Shown: positions 26,151 to 63,879 of the stretch, piece by piece
How positions within the stretch are numbered: position 1 is the stretch's first letter
How the letters are laid out: each line of letters begins with the position of its first letter
Assembly: GCA_021831035.1 (NCBI GenBank)
Contig: JAKBNL010000001.1
Location: forward strand, 217,642-281,641
DNA: 64,000 nucleotides
Origin: Actinomycetes bacterium
Lineage (GTDB): Bacteria > Actinomycetota > Acidimicrobiia > Acidimicrobiales > RAAP-2
Reading direction: 5' to 3'
Notes under the pieces: generated by a model
Database searches by the model: none
What the model saw: the letters and a program-made list of their open reading frames with translations, nothing else
What the model was told of the DNA's origin: nothing
Translations under genes and position numbers: made by a program

Positions 26151-27684
<1,534 letters not shown>

Positions 27685-27688
<4 letters not shown>

Positions 27689-29955
27689 GCGGCGGCCGGT
27701 TCAGCGACGCCGGGCTGTGGGGCGACCCCGCGCCGGCCGGGCGCCCCGATCCGGCGACGCTCCTCGAGGGGCTGACGGCGCCCCAGCGCGCGGCCGTGAC
27801 CCACCGGGGCGGGCCCCTGCTCGTCGTCGCCGGCGCCGGGTCGGGCAAGACCCGGGTCCTCACCCGGCGCATCGCCCACCTGCTCGCCACCGGCGACGCC
27901 GAGCCCCACCAGGTCATGGCGATCACCTTCACCAACAAGGCGGCCGACGAGATGCGCCGACGCGTGGTCGAGCTCGTCGGCGCCGACGTCGAGCGGATGT
28001 GGGTCTCGACCTTCCACTCGGCCTGTCTGCGCATGCTGCGCAGCCACGCCGACGTGCTCGGCTACGAGCGGGGGTTCACGATCTACGACGCGGGTGACGC
28101 GCAGACCGCCGTCGAGCTCATCATGCGCGAGCGGGGACTCGATACCAAGCGCCTCGCCCCGCGCAGCGTCGCGGCGGGCATCTCCGCGGCGAAGAACGAG
28201 ATGGTCTCGCCCGAGCGCTACGCGGCCGTCTACGGCGACGACCCCGTGCGCCGGCGCATCGCCGAGGTCTACCAGCTCTACGTCGAGCGGTTGCGCCGGG
28301 CGAACGCCATGGACTTCGACGACCTCCTGGTCAACGCCGTGGCGATGCTGGCGCGCGACGAGCACGTGCGCCGCGCCTACCAGCACCGCTTCACCCACCT
28401 GCTGGTGGACGAGTTCCAGGACACCAACGGGGTGCAGAACGAGCTCGTGATGACCCTCGCGGCCGAGCACCGGAACCTGTGCGTGGTCGGTGACTCGGAC
28501 CAGTCGATCTACCGCTTCCGCGCGGCCGACGTGCGCAACATCCTGCTGTTCGAGTCCCGCTTCCCCGACGCGACGGTCGTCGTGCTCGAGCAGAACTTCC
28601 GCTCGACCCAGGTGATCCTCGACGCCGCCAACGCCGTCATCGCGAGGAACCCCAGCCGTCACCCCAAGAACCTCTTCACCGACGGGGACGCCGGCGAGCG
28701 GATCCGCCTCTACCGGGCGGCCGACGAGTACGACGAGGGCCGCTTCATCGCGAGCGAGCTGCGCCGGCTGCGCGCCGCGGCCGGGCTCGACTGGCGCGAG
28801 ATGGCCGTCTTCTACCGGACCAACGCCCAGAGTCGCGTGCTCGAAGAGGAGCTCCTGCGCGCGAGCGTCCCCTACCGGGTCATCGCCGGCACCCGCTTCT
28901 ACGACCGCAAGGAGGTGAAGACGGCGCTCGCCTACGCGCGCCTCGTGGTCAACCCCCGCGACGAGGCCTCGGCCCGGCGGGTCGTCAACGAGCCGCGCCG
29001 GGGCGTCGGCGACGCCGCCCAGGCGAAGATCGGCGCCTACGCCGCCGAGCACGGCCTCTCCTTCGCCGAGGCGACCGCCCGCGGGGCGGCCGCGGGTCTC
29101 ACCGGCCGGGCGCTCGCGGGCTGCGACCGCTTCGCCTTCATGCTCGATGAGCTGCGGGCCCTCGCCAACGACCTCTCCCCGCGCGAGATGATCGACGCCA
29201 TCGTGCGCGAGTCGGGCCTGGGCGACGCCCTGCGCGCCGAGGGGTCCGACGAGGCCTACTCGCGCCTGGAGAACCTCGGGGAGCTCGCGAGCGCGGCCGC
29301 GCAGTACGAGTCGCTGCTCGACTTCGTCGAGCGCGTCGCCCTGGTGGCCGACTCCGACCAGCTCGGCGCGGGGGAGGGCGCGGTCTCCTTGATGACCCTG
29401 CACGTCGCCAAGGGGCTCGAGTTCCCCGCCGTCGTCATCGCCGGCCTCGAGGAGACGATCTTCCCCCACGCCCGGGCCCTCGCCGACGACGCCGAGCTCG
29501 AAGAGGAGCGCCGGCTCTGCTACGTGGGCCTGACCCGGGCGATGCGCCACCTCACCCTCACCCACGCCTGGACCCGCACCATGTGGGGTCGGCTCACCGA
29601 GGCCATCCCGAGCCGGTTCCTCCAGGAGGTGCCGCCCGAGCTCGTGACCGACCTCTCGAGCGTGGCGCCCACGCGCCGGTCGAGCTTCGCCCTCGACGAG
29701 GACGGCTTCGCCGGACGCCAGAGCGAGTTCGCCCAGGGCCGGGCCTTCGGCGCGGGCGCCGCGCCGCCGGTGCGCTCCACCGGGGCCGAGACGCTCGGGC
29801 TGGCCGTCGGCGAGCGCGTCGTGCACGAGCGCTACGGCCCCGGGGTCGTCACCGCGACCGAGGGGGAGGGCCGACACGCGCGGGCGACCGTCGCCTTCGA
29901 GTCGCACGGGGTGAAGCACCTGGTTCTCGCGATGACGCCGCTGCGTCGCGCCTGA
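27685..29955 (+). CDS. pcrA: ATP-dependent DNA helicase PcrA/UvrD
   Basis: A superfamily 1A 3'-5' helicase for DNA repair and plasmid/replication restart, 756 residues. Motifs: AGAGSGKT (Walker A), [11 protein letters not shown] (Ia), [10 protein letters not shown] (II), [14 protein letters not shown] (III), [13 protein letters not shown] (V) and VGLTRAM (VI). The C-terminal 50 residues ([14 protein letters not shown]) form the Tudor-like RNA-polymerase-binding fold of PcrA. The GTG start overlaps the guaA stop by 4 nt; the ORF-track start is inside guaA. Confidence 0.94.
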
Positions 29956-29959
29956 TGGG

Positions 29960-29975
29960 ATAAGTCCTCGCTAAG
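29960..29975 (+). promoter_or_regulatory. Candidate OmpR-type operator: direct repeat of (C/A)TAAG with 11-nt period
   Basis: ATAAG-TCCTCG-CTAAG lies between the pcrA stop and the next gene. A near-identical element, CTAAG-ACCTCG-CTAAG, sits 30 kb away upstream of the Rieske/two-component operon. The 11-nt period is typical of OmpR-family binding sites. Confidence 0.45.
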
Positions 29976-30027
29976 AATTCCCGATGGCCCGCGTAGACCC
30001 CCGCGCGGTCCTGGGAGAATGGCGAGC

Positions 30028-31320
30028 GTGTCTAGCGCTCCCCCGACGCAGCGACCCTCCCGAGCCGGCTACAGCGTCCCCTCGCGGCGCCGGCCCCCGG
30101 CCGGCCGGGGCCGCTACCGCCGGCGCCGACCGCCCTACGTCTACTGGATCCGCCGAGCCTTCGTCGTGGTGAGCGTGCTGATCCTGATCGTCGTGCTCTA
30201 CCTCGGGGTCACCCTGGTCCAGGCGCTCGGCAACCCCTCGCTCGGCGTCTCCTACCTCGCCCGCGCGGCCGAGTGGAGCCGTAGCCACGGGCTCGGCCCC
30301 GTGGTGCTCTGGGCCGAGAAGGAGTACTACGCCCTCAACCCGCCCAAGGTCGGTGGTGCGCCCGCGGCGAACGCCTTCGGCAACTCGGCGACCAAGTCGG
30401 GCGGTACCACCACCCGGGTGACGGCCCACGGCGAGACGTACCTGCCCGCCCCGGCGCGCATGACCTCCCCGGCCGGCACGTGGCTGCCCGGCGAGGGCGT
30501 CTGGCACCCGGTGGGCCGGCGCAGCGCCGACGGGATCCCGGCTATCTACGAGGCCTTCGTGCGCCCCAACAAGGTCAACACGAGCTACGTGGTCGGCGTC
30601 GCCTGGATGGACCCGAAGCTCCTCAAGGCGCAGCTCTACTCGGGCTCCTACATCCCCGGCGGCGGGCCCTACAAGTACAGCGCGCCCATCTCGGCCAGGG
30701 CCTCCGAGAGCCTGGTGGCCGCCTTCAACGCGGGCTTTCGCATGCAGGACGCCCAGGGTGGCTACTTCACCCAGGGCAAGACGATCATCCCGCTGCGCAC
30801 CGGCGCGGCCTCGGTCGTCGTGTACAAGAACGGCGACATGACCGTGGGCTCGTGGAACCGCGACGTCCACATGACCAAGCAGGTCGCCTCGGTGCGCCAG
30901 AACCTCCGGCTGATCGTGATCAACGGCCGACCGGTGCCGGGGCTCGACAACGCCAACTACATCAACTGGGGGGCGACCCTCGGTGGCTCCTACGCGGTGT
31001 GGCGCTCGGGGCTCGGGGTGACCAAGGACGGGGCCCTCGTCTACGTCGGCGGGCCGAGCCTGTCGATCTCGGACCTGGCGAACGTGCTGGTGCACGCCGG
31101 GGCGGTGCGCGCGATGGAGCTGGACATCAACACCGACTGGGTCCAGTTCTCCTCCTACCAGGGACCCCTCGGCAAGCCGATCAACGGCGGGAACGGGACC
31201 GACCTGCTGAGCTCGATGAACGGCGACCCGTCACGGTTCTTCGCCAGCTGGTGGAACCGGGACTTCTACACGATGTCGCTGCGCCCCTCGGACATGGTCG
31301 TCCAGGCGAAGAAGAAGTAG
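30028..31320 (+). CDS. Membrane-anchored phosphodiester glycosidase-like (NAGPA/DUF2233) protein
   Basis: A 430-residue protein with a basic cytoplasmic N terminus, one membrane segment (about residues 43-65) and a large external domain. The C-terminal half (about 205-420) resembles the phosphodiester glycosidase/NAGPA domain: VAAFNAGFRMQDAQGGYF, GVTKDGALVYVGG and the acidic ELDINTDW. The substrate is unknown; family members act on phosphate-linked sugars in cell-surface polymers. The start is uncertain: GTG 30028 follows GAGAAT by 7 nt (leaderless pattern); ATG 30019 is in frame. A 16-nt direct-repeat element lies about 55-70 nt upstream. A short hairpin follows the gene. Confidence 0.7.
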   Translation: MSSAPPTQRPSRAGYSVPSRRRPPAGRGRYRRRRPPYVYWIRRAFVVVSVLILIVVLYLGVTLVQALGNPSLGVSYLARAAEWSRSHGLGPVVLWAEKEYYALNPPKVGGAPAANAFGNSATKSGGTTTRVTAHGETYLPAPARMTSPAGTWLPGEGVWHPVGRRSADGIPAIYEAFVRPNKVNTSYVVGVAWMDPKLLKAQLYSGSYIPGGGPYKYSAPISARASESLVAAFNAGFRMQDAQGGYFTQGKTIIPLRTGAASVVVYKNGDMTVGSWNRDVHMTKQVASVRQNLRLIVINGRPVPGLDNANYINWGATLGGSYAVWRSGLGVTKDGALVYVGGPSLSISDLANVLVHAGAVRAMELDINTDWVQFSSYQGPLGKPINGGNGTDLLSSMNGDPSRFFASWWNRDFYTMSLRPSDMVVQAKKK

Positions 31321-58984: not shown

Positions 58985-59770
58985 ATGGCCACGACGCTGC
59001 TCGCCCTCGACGGCTACGCCGTCGAGGGCGGCCTCGACGGGCGGGGCCGGCCGGCCACCTGCTACGCCCCGACGATCGCGCTCGGGCGCCACGCGGGCCC
59101 CGGCGAGGCCGTGGGGCTGTGGGCGCGCTACGAAGAGGTCCTCGACGCGTCGGCCGAGCTCGGCCTGACCGGCGTCGCGCTCTCGGTCGAGTGGGCCCGC
59201 GTGGAGCCCCACCCCGGCGAGGTCGACGAGACGGCCCTCGCGCGCTACCGCGCGGTCGTCGAGCACGCGCGCTCGCGGGGGCTCCGGGTGACGGTGCGCC
59301 TGGTCACCTCGGCCTGGCCCTCGTGGCTTGGCCCCGAGGCGTGGATCCTGCCCTGGGTCGTGCCCCACGCCCTCGCCCACGCCGCCCGGGTGGCCGACGC
59401 CCTCGGCGACGCGCCCACGGGCTGGGTGGTCTTCGCCGACCCGGCGGGGCTCGTCGCGGGCGGTTACCTCGAGGGGACCCGTCCCCCCTGGCGCCGTCGC
59501 GCGGGCGTCGAGGCGGCCCTCGCCCGACGCCAGCTGGCCCGGATCGCGACGACGGTCGCCGAGTCGACCACGATCGGCTCGCGACTGGTCGAGGCCCGCC
59601 TCGTCGAGCTCGACCCGGTCGCCCTCGGCCGGGCGAGGGGGGCCCGCGGGGAGATCCACGTGCGCTCCCTCGTGCGCGGTGCCGGGCCCAGCGCGAGCGC
59701 GCGGGGGCTGCTCGAGCCCGACGGGCGCGGCTGGCGGGTCGAGGAGTCGGGGCTCGCGCTAGTGCGCTGA
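58985..59770 (+). CDS. Degenerate glycoside hydrolase family 1-like protein
   Basis: A 261-residue protein with half of a GH1 barrel: LWARYEEVLDASAELGLTGVALSVEWARVEP, LRVTVRLVTSAWPSWLGP and VVFADPAGLVAGGYLEGTRPP align with the DxxxMxxLGxxxxRFSxxWxRxxP, GxxPxVTLxHWDxPxWL and NEPxxxxxxGYxxGxxPP blocks. The acid/base Glu of NEP is replaced (ADP) and the C-terminal half with the nucleophile is missing, so it should not be a classical glycosidase. ATG follows GAGACT by 6 nt. Its 3' end overlaps DedA by 12 nt. It may be a pseudo-enzyme or decayed gene. Confidence 0.65.
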   Translation: MATTLLALDGYAVEGGLDGRGRPATCYAPTIALGRHAGPGEAVGLWARYEEVLDASAELGLTGVALSVEWARVEPHPGEVDETALARYRAVVEHARSRGLRVTVRLVTSAWPSWLGPEAWILPWVVPHALAHAARVADALGDAPTGWVVFADPAGLVAGGYLEGTRPPWRRRAGVEAALARRQLARIATTVAESTTIGSRLVEARLVELDPVALGRARGARGEIHVRSLVRGAGPSASARGLLEPDGRGWRVEESGLALVR

Positions 59771-60397
59771 GCGCTCGCGCTCGCGCGCGCGCGCGCGACG
59801 GCGCAGGTGCACGACCACGACGGCGGCGACGACGAGCACGAGCACGGCCAGGGCGAACCAGCTCGACCAGCGCTCGATGGTCGTGAGGGCGTTGCCGGCG
59901 AAGTAGCCGAGCAGGGTGAAGGCGACGCCCCAGATGAGCCCCCCGGCGGCGTTGGCGAGGAGGAACCGGCGATACGCCATCCCCGAGAGCCCGGCGAGCC
60001 CCGGGGTGACCGCGCGCAAGAACGCGGTGAAGCGCCCGACGAAGACGAAGGTGAGCCCGCGCTTCTCCAGGGCCGCGAGGGCCCGCTCCAGCGCGGCCCG
60101 TCGCCGCTCGAAGACCCGCAGCTCGAGCAGGCGCGGCCCGAAGTGGCGGCCGATCTCGTAGCCGACGGTGTCGCCCACCACGGCCGCGGCGACGACCACC
60201 GCGCACAAGAGCCCCACGTTCAGCCGGCCCTGGCTCGCGACGACCCCGGCCACGATCACCGAGGTCTCCCCGGGCAGGACGAAGCCGATGAAGAGGGCCG
60301 CCTCGCCGAAGACCAGCAGCGCGACCACCGCGATCACGAGGCCCGGGCTCAGGCGGTGGAGCTCGTTCGTCACGGACGAGACGATCGAGGCGAGCAT
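59759..60397 (-). CDS. DedA family membrane protein
   Basis: A 212-residue membrane protein of the DedA/SNARE-associated family. The family hairpin GEAALFIGFVLPGETSVIVAG, the VVGDTVGYEIGRHFG segment and FVGRFTAFLRAVTPGLAGLSGM (RF..FLR...PxxAG) are present. It ends in a poly-Arg tail. Related proteins are thought to flip lipid carriers or contribute to envelope homeostasis. ATG start; its 3' end overlaps the convergent GH1-like gene. Confidence 0.88.
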   Translation of the reverse strand: MLASIVSSVTNELHRLSPGLVIAVVALLVFGEAALFIGFVLPGETSVIVAGVVASQGRLNVGLLCAVVVAAAVVGDTVGYEIGRHFGPRLLELRVFERRRAALERALAALEKRGLTFVFVGRFTAFLRAVTPGLAGLSGMAYRRFLLANAAGGLIWGVAFTLLGYFAGNALTTIERWSSWFALAVLVLVVAAVVVVHLRRRARARERERSAH

Positions 60398-60440
60398 CCG
60401 TCCATTCTGGTGGCCGGCCGGGTCGCCGTGCCCGGACCCA

Positions 60441-60456
60441 CTAAGACCTCGCTAAG
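60441..60456 (+). promoter_or_regulatory. Candidate OmpR-type operator CTAAG-N6-CTAAG
   Basis: CTAAG-ACCTCG-CTAAG is a perfect direct repeat with 11-nt period, centred about 52 nt before the start codon of the Rieske/two-component operon. A near-identical element is at 29960-29975. The reverse complement resembles the CTTAA-N6-CTTAA boxes of PmrA/QseB-type regulators. Confidence 0.5.
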
Positions 60457-60488
60457 AGTGCCTCGGGGGACGGACGGAACCGCACCCC

Positions 60489-60494
60489 TACCAT
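60489..60494 (+). promoter_or_regulatory. -10 box TACCAT of a leaderless-type promoter
   Basis: TACCAT ends 6 nt before the GTG at 60501. No -35 box is recognisable, which fits activation from the direct repeat upstream. Confidence 0.45.
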
Positions 60495-60500
60495 GACCGG

Positions 60501-61781
60501 GTGACCAACCCGGACGCCCCCCGCCCGCGACGCTCGTCCACCGGGGCGCACCGGACGCGGCGCCTGCCCCTGCACGCCCCCCAGCGCGCCTGGGCGATGT
60601 CGGAGTGGGCGCTCCTGCCGCTGCGGCTCTTCCTCGGGGTGACCTTCGTCTACGCCGGGTTGCAGAAGCTGGCCAACCCCGCCTTCACCGACCCGGCGAG
60701 CTCGATCTCGATCCAGCGCCAGATGGCCTTCGCCGTCACGACCAGCCCGATCGGTGGGTTGCTCGCCCACCTGGTCGGTGCGGCCCGTCTGATCGGCATC
60801 GTCCTCGCCTTCGGCGAGCTCCTGGTGGGCCTGGGCACGGTGCTCGGGCTGTGGACCCGGGTCGCGGCCGCGGGCGGGCTCCTCATCTCGCTGAGCCTCT
60901 TTCTCACGGTGAGCTTCCACACGAGCCCGTACTTCACCGGCAGCGACATCGTCTTCTTCTTCGCCTGGATCCCCCTCGTCGTCGCCGGTGGCGGCTCGCG
61001 GCTGAGCGTCGACGCGAAGCTCGCCCAGATCGCCGCCCGCCAGCAGGGGGCGCCGCCGCCGACGCTGGTGCCGATCGCCTTTGCGACCGTGCAGTCGGTC
61101 TGTGGGCACTACGACGACGGACGCTGTCGGGCGCTGCGCGCGCTGTGCGGCCCCGCGCACTGCCCGGTGCTCGCCGGCGAGCGCCCCTCCCTCTACGACC
61201 GGCGACACCTCGACGCGGTGGACCGGCGCACGCTCATCGCCGGCACCAGCGCGGTGGTCGGGGGGATCGCGGGGGCCCTCGCGATCGGCGCGATCGCGGC
61301 CGAGGGCGGCAAGCTGCTCTCCTCTCCCTCGGGCGGCACCGGGCGCACGCTCCACCCGACGGCCACGACGGGTGGCCCCACGACCACGACGAGCGCGCCC
61401 ACGACCGCGACGAGCGCGAGCGCCGCGCCGACCACGACCACGTCGGGCCCCTCGACCACCTCCACCCACCACCGGGGCACCCTGCTCGGCAGCGCGAGCC
61501 AGGTGCCCACCAACCAGGCCGCGAGCTTCACCATCCCGAGCAACGGCGACCCCGGCATCGTCGTGCACACCCAGCAGGGTGCCTTCGTCGCCTACGACGC
61601 CGTCTGCCCGCACCTGGGCTGCACGGTCGGCTACGCCCCGTCGATGCAGCTGATCGTCTGCCCCTGCCACGGCTCGGAGTTCGAGGTACTCACCGGCGAC
61701 GTCGTCAGCGGGCCGGCGCCCCACGGGCTGACCAAGCTCGACCTCGTCGAAGAGGGCAACGGTAACCTCTACCTGCAATGA
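60501..61781 (+). CDS. DoxX-type membrane domain fused to Rieske iron-sulfur domain
   Basis: A 426-residue fusion. The N-terminal half (about 33-165) is a four-helix DoxX/DoxD-like domain (LPLRLFLGVTFVYAGLQKL). A cysteine-containing linker (CGHYDDGRCRALRALCGPAHC), another membrane segment (about 248-270) and a Thr/Ser/Pro linker lead to a C-terminal Rieske domain with CPHLGC and CPCHGSEF, the 2Fe-2S ligands plus two cysteines for the bc1-type disulphide. A redox role at the membrane, perhaps passing electrons from quinol or thiosulfate, is inferred. ATGA overlap with the response regulator couples them. Confidence 0.75.
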   Translation: MTNPDAPRPRRSSTGAHRTRRLPLHAPQRAWAMSEWALLPLRLFLGVTFVYAGLQKLANPAFTDPASSISIQRQMAFAVTTSPIGGLLAHLVGAARLIGIVLAFGELLVGLGTVLGLWTRVAAAGGLLISLSLFLTVSFHTSPYFTGSDIVFFFAWIPLVVAGGGSRLSVDAKLAQIAARQQGAPPPTLVPIAFATVQSVCGHYDDGRCRALRALCGPAHCPVLAGERPSLYDRRHLDAVDRRTLIAGTSAVVGGIAGALAIGAIAAEGGKLLSSPSGGTGRTLHPTATTGGPTTTTSAPTTATSASAAPTTTTSGPSTTSTHHRGTLLGSASQVPTNQAASFTIPSNGDPGIVVHTQQGAFVAYDAVCPHLGCTVGYAPSMQLIVCPCHGSEFEVLTGDVVSGPAPHGLTKLDLVEEGNGNLYLQ

Positions 61782-62464
61782 GCGACGGACCCCGGCGGGT
61801 GCTGATCGTCGAGGACGACCCGGACCAGGCGGCGGCGGTGGCGGGACTGCTCGCCGACGACGGCTTCGAGGCCGTGGTGCGCCACGACGGTGACAGCGGG
61901 CTCGAAGAGGGGCTCCGCGGCGACTACGACGTCATCGTGCTCGACATCATGCTGCCCAAGCGCAGCGGCTTTCGGGTCTGTCAGGACCTGCGCGCCGCCG
62001 GGGTGGCGACCCCGCTGCTGATGCTCACGGCCAAAGAGGGCGAGTGGGACGAGGTCGAGGGCCTCGACGTGGGCGCCGACGACTTCTTGCGCAAGCCCTA
62101 CGAGCGCACCGTGCTCATGGCGCGGGTCCACGCCCTCCTGCGCCGCCAGGAGCGGGGTCGTCCCCCGAGCATCACCGTCGGCGCGGTCAGCCTCAACCCG
62201 GTGACCCACCAGGTGGTCGCCCACGGCCGACCGGTGTCGCTCACCCCCCGCGAGTTCAGCCTGCTCGAGTTCCTGCTCAGCCACCCCCGTGAGGTCCTCT
62301 CCAAGGGCGAGATCCTCGACGCGGTGTGGGGCGACGACTTCGACGGCGACCAGAACATCGTCGAGGTCTACGTCGGCTACCTGCGCCGCAAGGTCGACCT
62401 CGCCGGTCGCCCCTCGCTGGTGCGCACCGTGCGCGGCCTCGGCTACAGCGTCCGCGAGGCCTGA
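61778..62464 (+). CDS. OmpR/PhoB-family response regulator
   Basis: A 228-residue two-component regulator. The receiver domain (1-120) has the acidic pair VEDD, phospho-acceptor Asp in VIVLDIMLPKRSG, Thr in MLTAKE and Lys in RKPYE. The winged-helix DNA-binding domain has LTPREFSLLEFLLSHP and VRGLGYSVRE. ATG overlaps the Rieske stop and its stop overlaps the kinase ATG by one base. The 11-nt direct repeats upstream of the operon are its most likely target, by inference. Confidence 0.93.
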   Translation: MSDGPRRVLIVEDDPDQAAAVAGLLADDGFEAVVRHDGDSGLEEGLRGDYDVIVLDIMLPKRSGFRVCQDLRAAGVATPLLMLTAKEGEWDEVEGLDVGADDFLRKPYERTVLMARVHALLRRQERGRPPSITVGAVSLNPVTHQVVAHGRPVSLTPREFSLLEFLLSHPREVLSKGEILDAVWGDDFDGDQNIVEVYVGYLRRKVDLAGRPSLVRTVRGLGYSVREA

Positions 62465-63879
62465 TGCGCCGCCCGGCGCCCCTGTCGATCAGGGTGCGCC
62501 TGACGATCATCTTCGTCGTGGCGATCGCGGTCATCCTGTCCTTCACCGGTCTGGCGTTGAACGACCTGGTGCACCGGGCCCTGGTGAACCAGGCGACCAA
62601 CCAGGTCGACGCCGTGATGCAGCAGACCCAGGAGCGCTTCGCCCTGGCGAGCCGGCCGATCACCAAGCGGCTCACCCTCACCGACGTGGGCGACGTCGTC
62701 GTCCAGGTCACGAACCGCGCGGGCACCCGGGTGCTCGCCGCCAGCGCCGCCATCGCCAGCGCGCCGGTGCTCGCCACGGCGCGCATCGACCCGGCCCAGC
62801 CGAGCGGGCTCGCGGTGCACTACGTGCGCGACCAGTACACCCAGGCCTACCTCGACGTGCTCTCCTCGGGCCAGGCCGCCCTCATCGCGACGCCCGAGGG
62901 CATCGGCCTGGTCTACGCCTTCCTCTACCACGCGCCGATCGCCCACAGCGAGGGGACGCTGCTGTTGAGCCTGGGCGTCTCCTTCCCCCTCCTGCTCGTG
63001 CTCTCGGGGGCGATCATCTGGCTCGGCCTGGGTCTCGCGCTCGCGCCGGTGGAGAGCATCCGCCGGCGGGTCGACCAGATCGCGGCGCGCGACCTCTCCG
63101 AGCGGGTGCCGGTCATCGGGGGCGACGACGAGATCGCCCGGCTCAGCCGGACGGTGAACGCGATGCTCGCGCGCCTGGAGTCGGCGTCGCGGTTCCAACA
63201 GGAGTTCGTCTCCAACGCCAGCCACGAGCTGCGCAGCCCCCTCACCACCCTGCTCGCGACGACCCAGCGCGCCGCGGCCGACCCCGAGCGCGCCGACTGG
63301 CAGGGCGTCGCCGACACCGTGGTGCGCGAGGGGCGACGCCTGGACGCGCTCATCTCACGCCTCTTCTGGTTGGCGCGTAGCGACGAGGACCAGCTCGAGG
63401 TCCACCCGGTCGAGGTCGACCTCGATGACCTGCTCTTCGACGAGGCCTCCCGGGTGCGCGCCATGACCGCGCTCGCCGTCGACACGACGATGGTCCAGCC
63501 CACCCGGGTCATCGGGGACGAGACGATGTTGCGCCACCTCGTGCGCAACGTCGTCGACAACGCGCTGCGCTACACCCAGGCCGAGCTGCGCCTGGCGGTG
63601 CGCGCCGAGGGCGACGAGGCCGTCGTCACGGTGGCCGACGACGGCGAGGGCGTGGACCTCGCCACGAGTGACCGGCTCTTCGAGCGCTTCACCCGGGCCG
63701 ACTCGGCTCGCAGCCGCGACCGCGGCGGGACGGGCCTGGGGCTGGCCATCGTGGCCGAGATCGCCCGGCGCCACGGGGGCTCGGCCCGCTTCGTCGCCGC
63801 CGAGCGCGGGGCCACGGTCGAGCTGCGGGTGCGCCGCGACGGGGCGACCCTCGCGTCGGGCGGCCCGCCGACTCCCTAG
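62464..63879 (+). CDS. Sensor histidine kinase (HAMP-HisKA-HATPase)
   Basis: A 471-residue membrane kinase paired with the regulator. Two membrane segments (about 15-35 and 170-195) flank an extracellular sensor of about 130 residues without obvious family. HAMP follows, then the H box FVSNASHELRSPLTT, N box NVVDNALRYT, and G/F boxes DDGEGVD, FERF and GGTGLGLAI. The ATG at 62464 fits the TGATG overlap; the ORF-track start is inside the regulator gene. Confidence 0.92.
   Translation: MRRPAPLSIRVRLTIIFVVAIAVILSFTGLALNDLVHRALVNQATNQVDAVMQQTQERFALASRPITKRLTLTDVGDVVVQVTNRAGTRVLAASAAIASAPVLATARIDPAQPSGLAVHYVRDQYTQAYLDVLSSGQAALIATPEGIGLVYAFLYHAPIAHSEGTLLLSLGVSFPLLLVLSGAIIWLGLGLALAPVESIRRRVDQIAARDLSERVPVIGGDDEIARLSRTVNAMLARLESASRFQQEFVSNASHELRSPLTTLLATTQRAAADPERADWQGVADTVVREGRRLDALISRLFWLARSDEDQLEVHPVEVDLDDLLFDEASRVRAMTALAVDTTMVQPTRVIGDETMLRHLVRNVVDNALRYTQAELRLAVRAEGDEAVVTVADDGEGVDLATSDRLFERFTRADSARSRDRGGTGLGLAIVAEIARRHGGSARFVAAERGATVELRVRRDGATLASGGPPTP

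Follow-up and report, generated by a model that had tools for sequence, protein, structure and literature searches.

A conserved direct repeat of predicted OmpR/PhoB operator type at NAGPA and DoxD-Rieske promoters in an Acidimicrobiia genus, and its probable reading by an MprA-like regulator

Several described two-component regulators recognize DNA elements resembling the one reported here. The MprAB systems of Corynebacterium glutamicum (cg0996-cg0997) and of the mycobacteria combine an OmpR-family regulator with a TAAGAA half-site, autoregulation and envelope-stress targets (PMC12113857). In C. glutamicum the MprA motif is TKTTAAGAAM, the regulator's own site at mprA is TTTTAAGAGA, and autoregulation is positive (PMC12113857). 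The PmrA/BasR box of the Enterobacteriaceae consists of head-to-tail CTTAAG, CTTAAT or CCTAAG half-sites with 5 bp between them, which gives an 11-bp period (PMC3973317). CutR of Streptomyces uses an A/T-rich TAWATAAA site, from which it activates at -62/-69 and represses at -17 (PMC12802291).

The element studied here has features of each of these systems. It shares the OmpR-family context, the TAAGAA half-site, predicted autoregulation and candidate envelope-stress targets with MprAB; however, the motif published for C. glutamicum comprises one 10-bp half-site, whereas the Acidimicrobiia element is a clear 11-bp direct repeat, and the targets (NAGPA, DoxD-Rieske and FMN_bind/ApbE genes) differ from those of MprAB. 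The head-to-tail arrangement and the 11-bp period are those of the PmrA/BasR box, but regulator clade and organism are different, and the half-site is TAAGA/TAAR, with no requirement for a leading CT. CutR is likewise an OmpR-family actinobacterial regulator, and its activating position of about -62 is near that seen here; its site is unlike ours in sequence, and no 11-bp repeat has been defined for it.

The window analyzed in this study is a 64,000-nucleotide stretch of a 1.9-Mb Acidimicrobiia genome, which contains two copies of the element in the following settings.

29960..29976, + strand: direct-repeat operator 1, ATAAG-TCCTCG-CTAAGA, 11-bp period, assigned from sequence, spacing and conservation upstream of NAGPA orthologues
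30015..30020, + strand: putative -10 hexamer, GAGAAT here and CAGAAT in most relatives, 39 nt beyond operator 1, from sequence and conservation
30028..31320, + strand: gene for P0002, a phosphodiester-glycosidase-like (NAGPA, PF09992) membrane-anchored protein, with a likely leaderless GTG start at 30028
59759..60397, - strand: divergent DedA/VTT-domain membrane protein gene
60441..60457, + strand: direct-repeat operator 2, CTAAG-ACCTCG-CTAAGA, assigned from sequence, spacing and conservation upstream of DoxD-Rieske orthologues
60489..60494, + strand: putative -10 hexamer, TACCAT here and CAnnAT in relatives, separated from operator 2 by 32 nt (by 38-39 nt in relatives), from sequence and conservation
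60501..61781, + strand: gene for P0003, a DoxD/DoxX-Rieske fusion protein, first gene of the operon
61778..62464, + strand: gene for P0001, an OmpR-family response regulator with recognition helix NIVEVYVGYLRRK
62464..63879, + strand: gene for P0004, a HAMP/HisKA/HATPase sensor histidine kinase, with a predicted ATG start at 62464

The sequence TAAGWCCTCGCTAAGA is found at positions 29961-29976 and 60442-60457 and has no third copy in the whole genome. Copy 1 reads ATAAGTCCTCGCTAAG at 29960-29975, followed by A at 29976, and copy 2 reads CTAAGACCTCGCTAAGA at 60441-60457. As the original prediction had it, the two 16-nt elements are nearly identical (one base of 16 differs), and each lies in a short intergenic gap. 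The claimed distance of 52-68 nt to the start codon is correct for copy 1 (GTG at 30028) but is 44-60 nt for copy 2 (GTG at 60501). Similarly, the OmpR-type gene said to lie directly downstream of copy 2 does belong to the same operon but is its second gene, the DoxD-Rieske fusion gene (60501-61781) intervening.

Genome-wide counts were made by pattern searches. The 16-mer family, with up to three mismatches allowed, has three matches in the window against 0.38 expected, and across the whole genome the full element has two relatives with one mismatch and two with two mismatches. A whole-genome scan for TAAG-N(0-30)-TAAG pairs (31 spacings) recovered 20 pairs: nine at spacing 7 (an 11-bp period), three at spacing 18 (a 22-bp period) and eight over the remaining 29 spacings. 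The excess at spacing 7 has a P value of about 1e-7 after correction for 31 spacings. The genome-wide search that had been called for placed the full element at two positions only, and its spacing-7 sites include some at envelope genes. The feared abundance of matches inside coding regions was not seen: all nine spacing-7 sites in this genome are intergenic or lie across a stop codon. In a high-GC genome, however, TAAG tends to fall between genes in any case, because it includes the stop triplet TAA. When TAARN7TAAGA was counted across the genus, no excess over the reversed control was obtained, since real sites are few per genome and the control is unequal; the regulon must therefore be small.

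Judged by its sequence, the repeated element is a conserved, predicted operator of OmpR/PhoB type, because it has two head-to-tail half-sites with an 11-bp period (in the spacing spectrum and in relatives), a location in intergenic DNA or across a stop codon (all nine sites in this genome), a fixed distance from the -10 of target promoters, conservation at both promoters and a position usually near -59. The original assignment of an 11-nt-period OmpR-family operator to both promoters is therefore supported.

Operator 1 begins 5 nt past the stop codon of the upstream open reading frame (27442-29955). An ATG at 30019 is in frame with the GTG at 30028 and overlaps the putative -10. The NAGPA gene is present in 89 of 99 genus mates, and its operator was found in 41 of 47 genus mates, compared with a mean of 4.0 and a maximum of 8 in Markov-resampled sequence; the consensus of the site is TAAATCGTTCGTAAGAAT. 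In one genome (G063) the site overlaps the end of the preceding open reading frame. At six NAGPA promoters (L056, L062, L063, L066, L067 and L069) the operator points the other way with respect to the gene but keeps its distance to the -10, which suggests orientation-tolerant activation. A second NAGPA gene (NAGPA2) is preceded by half-site doublets or triplets in most genomes examined. In the window's own genome (G000), the gap on contig C10 between this gene and a divergently transcribed membrane protein gene (L078:16139-18018) holds two operators, each facing one of the genes.

Operator 2 lies between the divergent DedA/VTT gene and the operon for the DoxD-Rieske protein, P0001 and the kinase. 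Most of the 99 genus mates retain this operon. A match to P0001 at E <= 1e-60 was obtained in 79 and was absent from 20; G024, in which P0001 is cut at a contig end, was scored positive. In G111 (L230:2487-3179), only a remnant of the two-component system is left, in which the beginning of the response regulator is joined to the kinase's end through an internal deletion. The DoxD-Rieske operator, with the consensus ATAAATNTTNNNTAAGAG, was found in 26 of 44 genus mates, against a mean of 2.9 and a maximum of 7 in Markov-resampled sequence. In relatives, just 4-5 nt separate operator 2 from the divergent DedA gene's own putative -10, and the same site could therefore repress DedA; the window's clade has about 27 extra nt between the two (60397-60441 in the window).

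The start codon comes only 6-8 nt after a -10-like hexamer at either promoter, which makes both transcripts look leaderless. The operator is centered at about -59 for NAGPA and about -51 for the DoxD-Rieske operon of the window, and at about -59 for both in most relatives. Its distance to the -10 is 38-43 nt in most relatives; a strictly constant helical phase was considered and set aside, since the relatives mostly fit but operator 2 of the window's own clade, at 32 nt, departs from it. Because the operator is centered some 50-60 bp ahead of what looks like a leaderless start, just upstream of the expected -35 position, it most likely activates transcription. Such activation from about -59 would be akin to that by CutR at -62/-69.

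A candidate for the binding protein is P0006, an MprA-like OmpR-family regulator encoded on contig C9 of the same genome and universal in the genus. Of the OmpR-family regulators that were read in this genome, only P0001 and P0006 have a VYxGYLRRK recognition helix (in L241 the corresponding sequence is YISYVRRK). P0006 is more conserved than P0001, and of the 20 genomes in which P0001 had no full-length match, 18 contain P0006, the exceptions being assemblies that are 73-75% complete. It is 57-60% identical to homologues from Mycobacterium, Streptomyces and Corynebacterium, and in a tree it groups with actinobacterial MprA-type proteins, whereas P0001 forms a separate, long-stemmed group. The named homologues are presumably true MprA orthologues, as judged from sequence and from the gene names in PMC12113857. 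An MtrA-like identity for P0006 was rejected, as no MtrA model matched at cut-off and the named homologues and the helix favor the MprA type.

The P0006 promoter itself carries CTAAGAATCTnnGAAGAT-like TAAGAA sites in 22 of 22 genomes, compared with a null mean of 3.7 and a maximum of 8; an MprA-like regulator thus has the operator at its own promoter. The half-sites are TAAGAA(T) at the NAGPA and P0006 promoters and TAAGAG at DoxD-Rieske, and the TTAAGAA/TAAGAA form agrees with both TKTTAAGAAM and the C. glutamicum mprA site. MprA-like promoters from Ilumatobacteraceae and other actinobacterial metagenome-assembled genomes contain GTAAGAA-N5-CAAGAAC; those that were examined from mycobacteria and streptomycetes lack the direct repeat. 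The NAGPA and DoxD-Rieske sites (TAAAT.NTT...TAAGAR) are closer to each other than to the P0006 site TAAGAATCTnnGAAGAT, and this dissimilarity could mean different readers. On balance, we think it likely that the element is an MprA-type envelope-stress operator for which P0006 would most likely be the main reader, with P0001 overlapping in specificity.

The original prediction was that P0001 controls its own operon and the NAGPA gene. In the exclusive form of this idea, P0001 alone would bind both operators, autoregulate the operon and control the NAGPA gene, which we regard as unlikely even though P0001 is encoded behind operator 2, has a suitable helix and would account for the resemblance between the NAGPA and DoxD-Rieske sites. 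Operator presence does track P0001: in hand tallies that ignore kinship, the NAGPA operator was found in 31 of 32 genomes with P0001 versus 9 of 16 without it (Fisher p = 0.001), and the DoxD-Rieske operator in 26 of 44 versus 3 of 12 (Fisher p = 0.05). Neither P0001 nor the NAGPA operator is present in G013, G016, G081, G122, G061 and G117, and in several of these P0001-lacking lineages (G013, G016, G122 and G117) both operators are missing. Loss of the operator together with P0001, as expected under autoregulation, did not always occur, however, since sites persist in G012, G014, G071, G030, G006 and G111. All six keep the NAGPA operator, G111 with only a broken regulator-kinase remnant and the others without P0001; G112 and G018 also keep it without P0001, but these assemblies are only 70-75% complete, so P0001 may be unassembled. 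In G014 the DoxD-Rieske gene retains an intact operator, ATAAATCTTGACTAAGAG, while the operon has lost regulator and kinase, since unrelated genes come next on that contig. The operator has stayed in G012 and G014 although its flanks differ between the two, and NAGPA2 sites persist in G030 and G012. P0001 is therefore associated with the operators but needless for their upkeep. The original prediction was right about the type of element and its place at both promoters, but probably wrong or incomplete about its owner; P0001 may bind the operators too.

It is considerably less probable that another OmpR-family system reads the operators, for example TCS2 (regulator P0005) on contig C10, downstream of which a gene for a secreted protein carries a triple half-site. 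That contig holds four of the nine spacing-7 sites, one of them immediately after the TCS2 kinase gene; nevertheless, TCS2 was set aside as the reader on account of its different recognition helix (IDVHVAALRKK) and its own promoter, which lacks the repeat. Least probable of all, and in our view very hard to sustain, is that the likeness of the copies reflects chance or selection for a role unrelated to a regulator, such as a promoter element or mRNA structure. The intergenic bias of TAAG and the fact that single two-copy matches often arise by chance would favor this explanation, but the sharp preference for 11- and 22-bp periods would not, and neither an mRNA element nor a core promoter box is easily reconciled with a conserved site that keeps a fixed distance from the -10 and is flipped in certain lineages.

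The reading that we prefer, with P0006 as main reader, can be set out as follows; the anatomy of the operator, its spacing, conservation and list of targets and its persistence where P0001 is missing are observed, and from these we infer the binding protein, activation, start sites and signal. A phosphorylated response-regulator dimer of MprA type would occupy two TAAGA/TAAR half-sites, spaced 11 bp apart, in a head-to-tail arrangement. P0006 appears to bind its own promoter too. Its diverged paralogue P0001 shares the recognition-helix core and would probably overlap with P0006 in specificity, particularly at its own DoxD-Rieske operon. More tentatively, it is possible that two paralogous regulators, one universal and MprA-like and the other diverged, lineage-specific and encoded within a target operon, use a single operator code in common. 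The operon-borne system would then be a dispensable overlay, because the operators outlive the repeated loss of the specific regulator, on an ancestral envelope and redox stress regulon, through which MprA signaling would be connected with NAGPA-domain proteins and with electron transfer by DoxD-Rieske or flavin.

The candidate regulon is an envelope and extracytoplasmic redox stress set, as expected of an MprA-type system. Its candidate targets are the mprAB-like operon, pspA, the two NAGPA-domain genes, the DoxD-Rieske gene with its two-component system, a Ferric_reduct/FMN_bind/ApbE operon and secreted proteins. A site precedes pspA (PF04012), an envelope-stress gene of the kind expected, like sigE and htrA/pepD, in an MprA-type regulon, in 20 of 30 genomes, against a null mean of 3.6 and a maximum of 8. 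In the window's own genome, sites were also found in the gap between GH15 and GH3 genes and before small secreted proteins. On contig C10, an operon with Ferric_reduct/FAD-binding, FMN_bind and ApbE genes (L079:5276-8067), which is a predicted flavin-based extracytoplasmic electron-transfer module, has TAAG-N7-TAAG upstream at C10:25111. Elsewhere on that contig, three half-sites, CTACG-N6-CTAAG-N6-CTAAG (L079, C10:37099-37125), stand before a small secreted protein without a Pfam match, directly after the TCS2 kinase gene. In G030 (L144:368-2157), genes for ApbE and for a ferric-reductase-like membrane protein come after the MprA-like two-component system.

In conclusion, this analysis provides a defined operator and a testable regulon for an Acidimicrobiia genus whose assemblies used here are mostly fragmented. 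It would extend the MprA-type TAAGAA operator outside the Corynebacteriales and connect envelope stress with NAGPA-domain proteins, a DoxD-Rieske fusion and a Ferric_reduct/FMN_bind/ApbE module. The genomes that lack P0001 are natural knock-outs, in which the sharing and later loss of an operator code by a duplicated two-component system may be studied.
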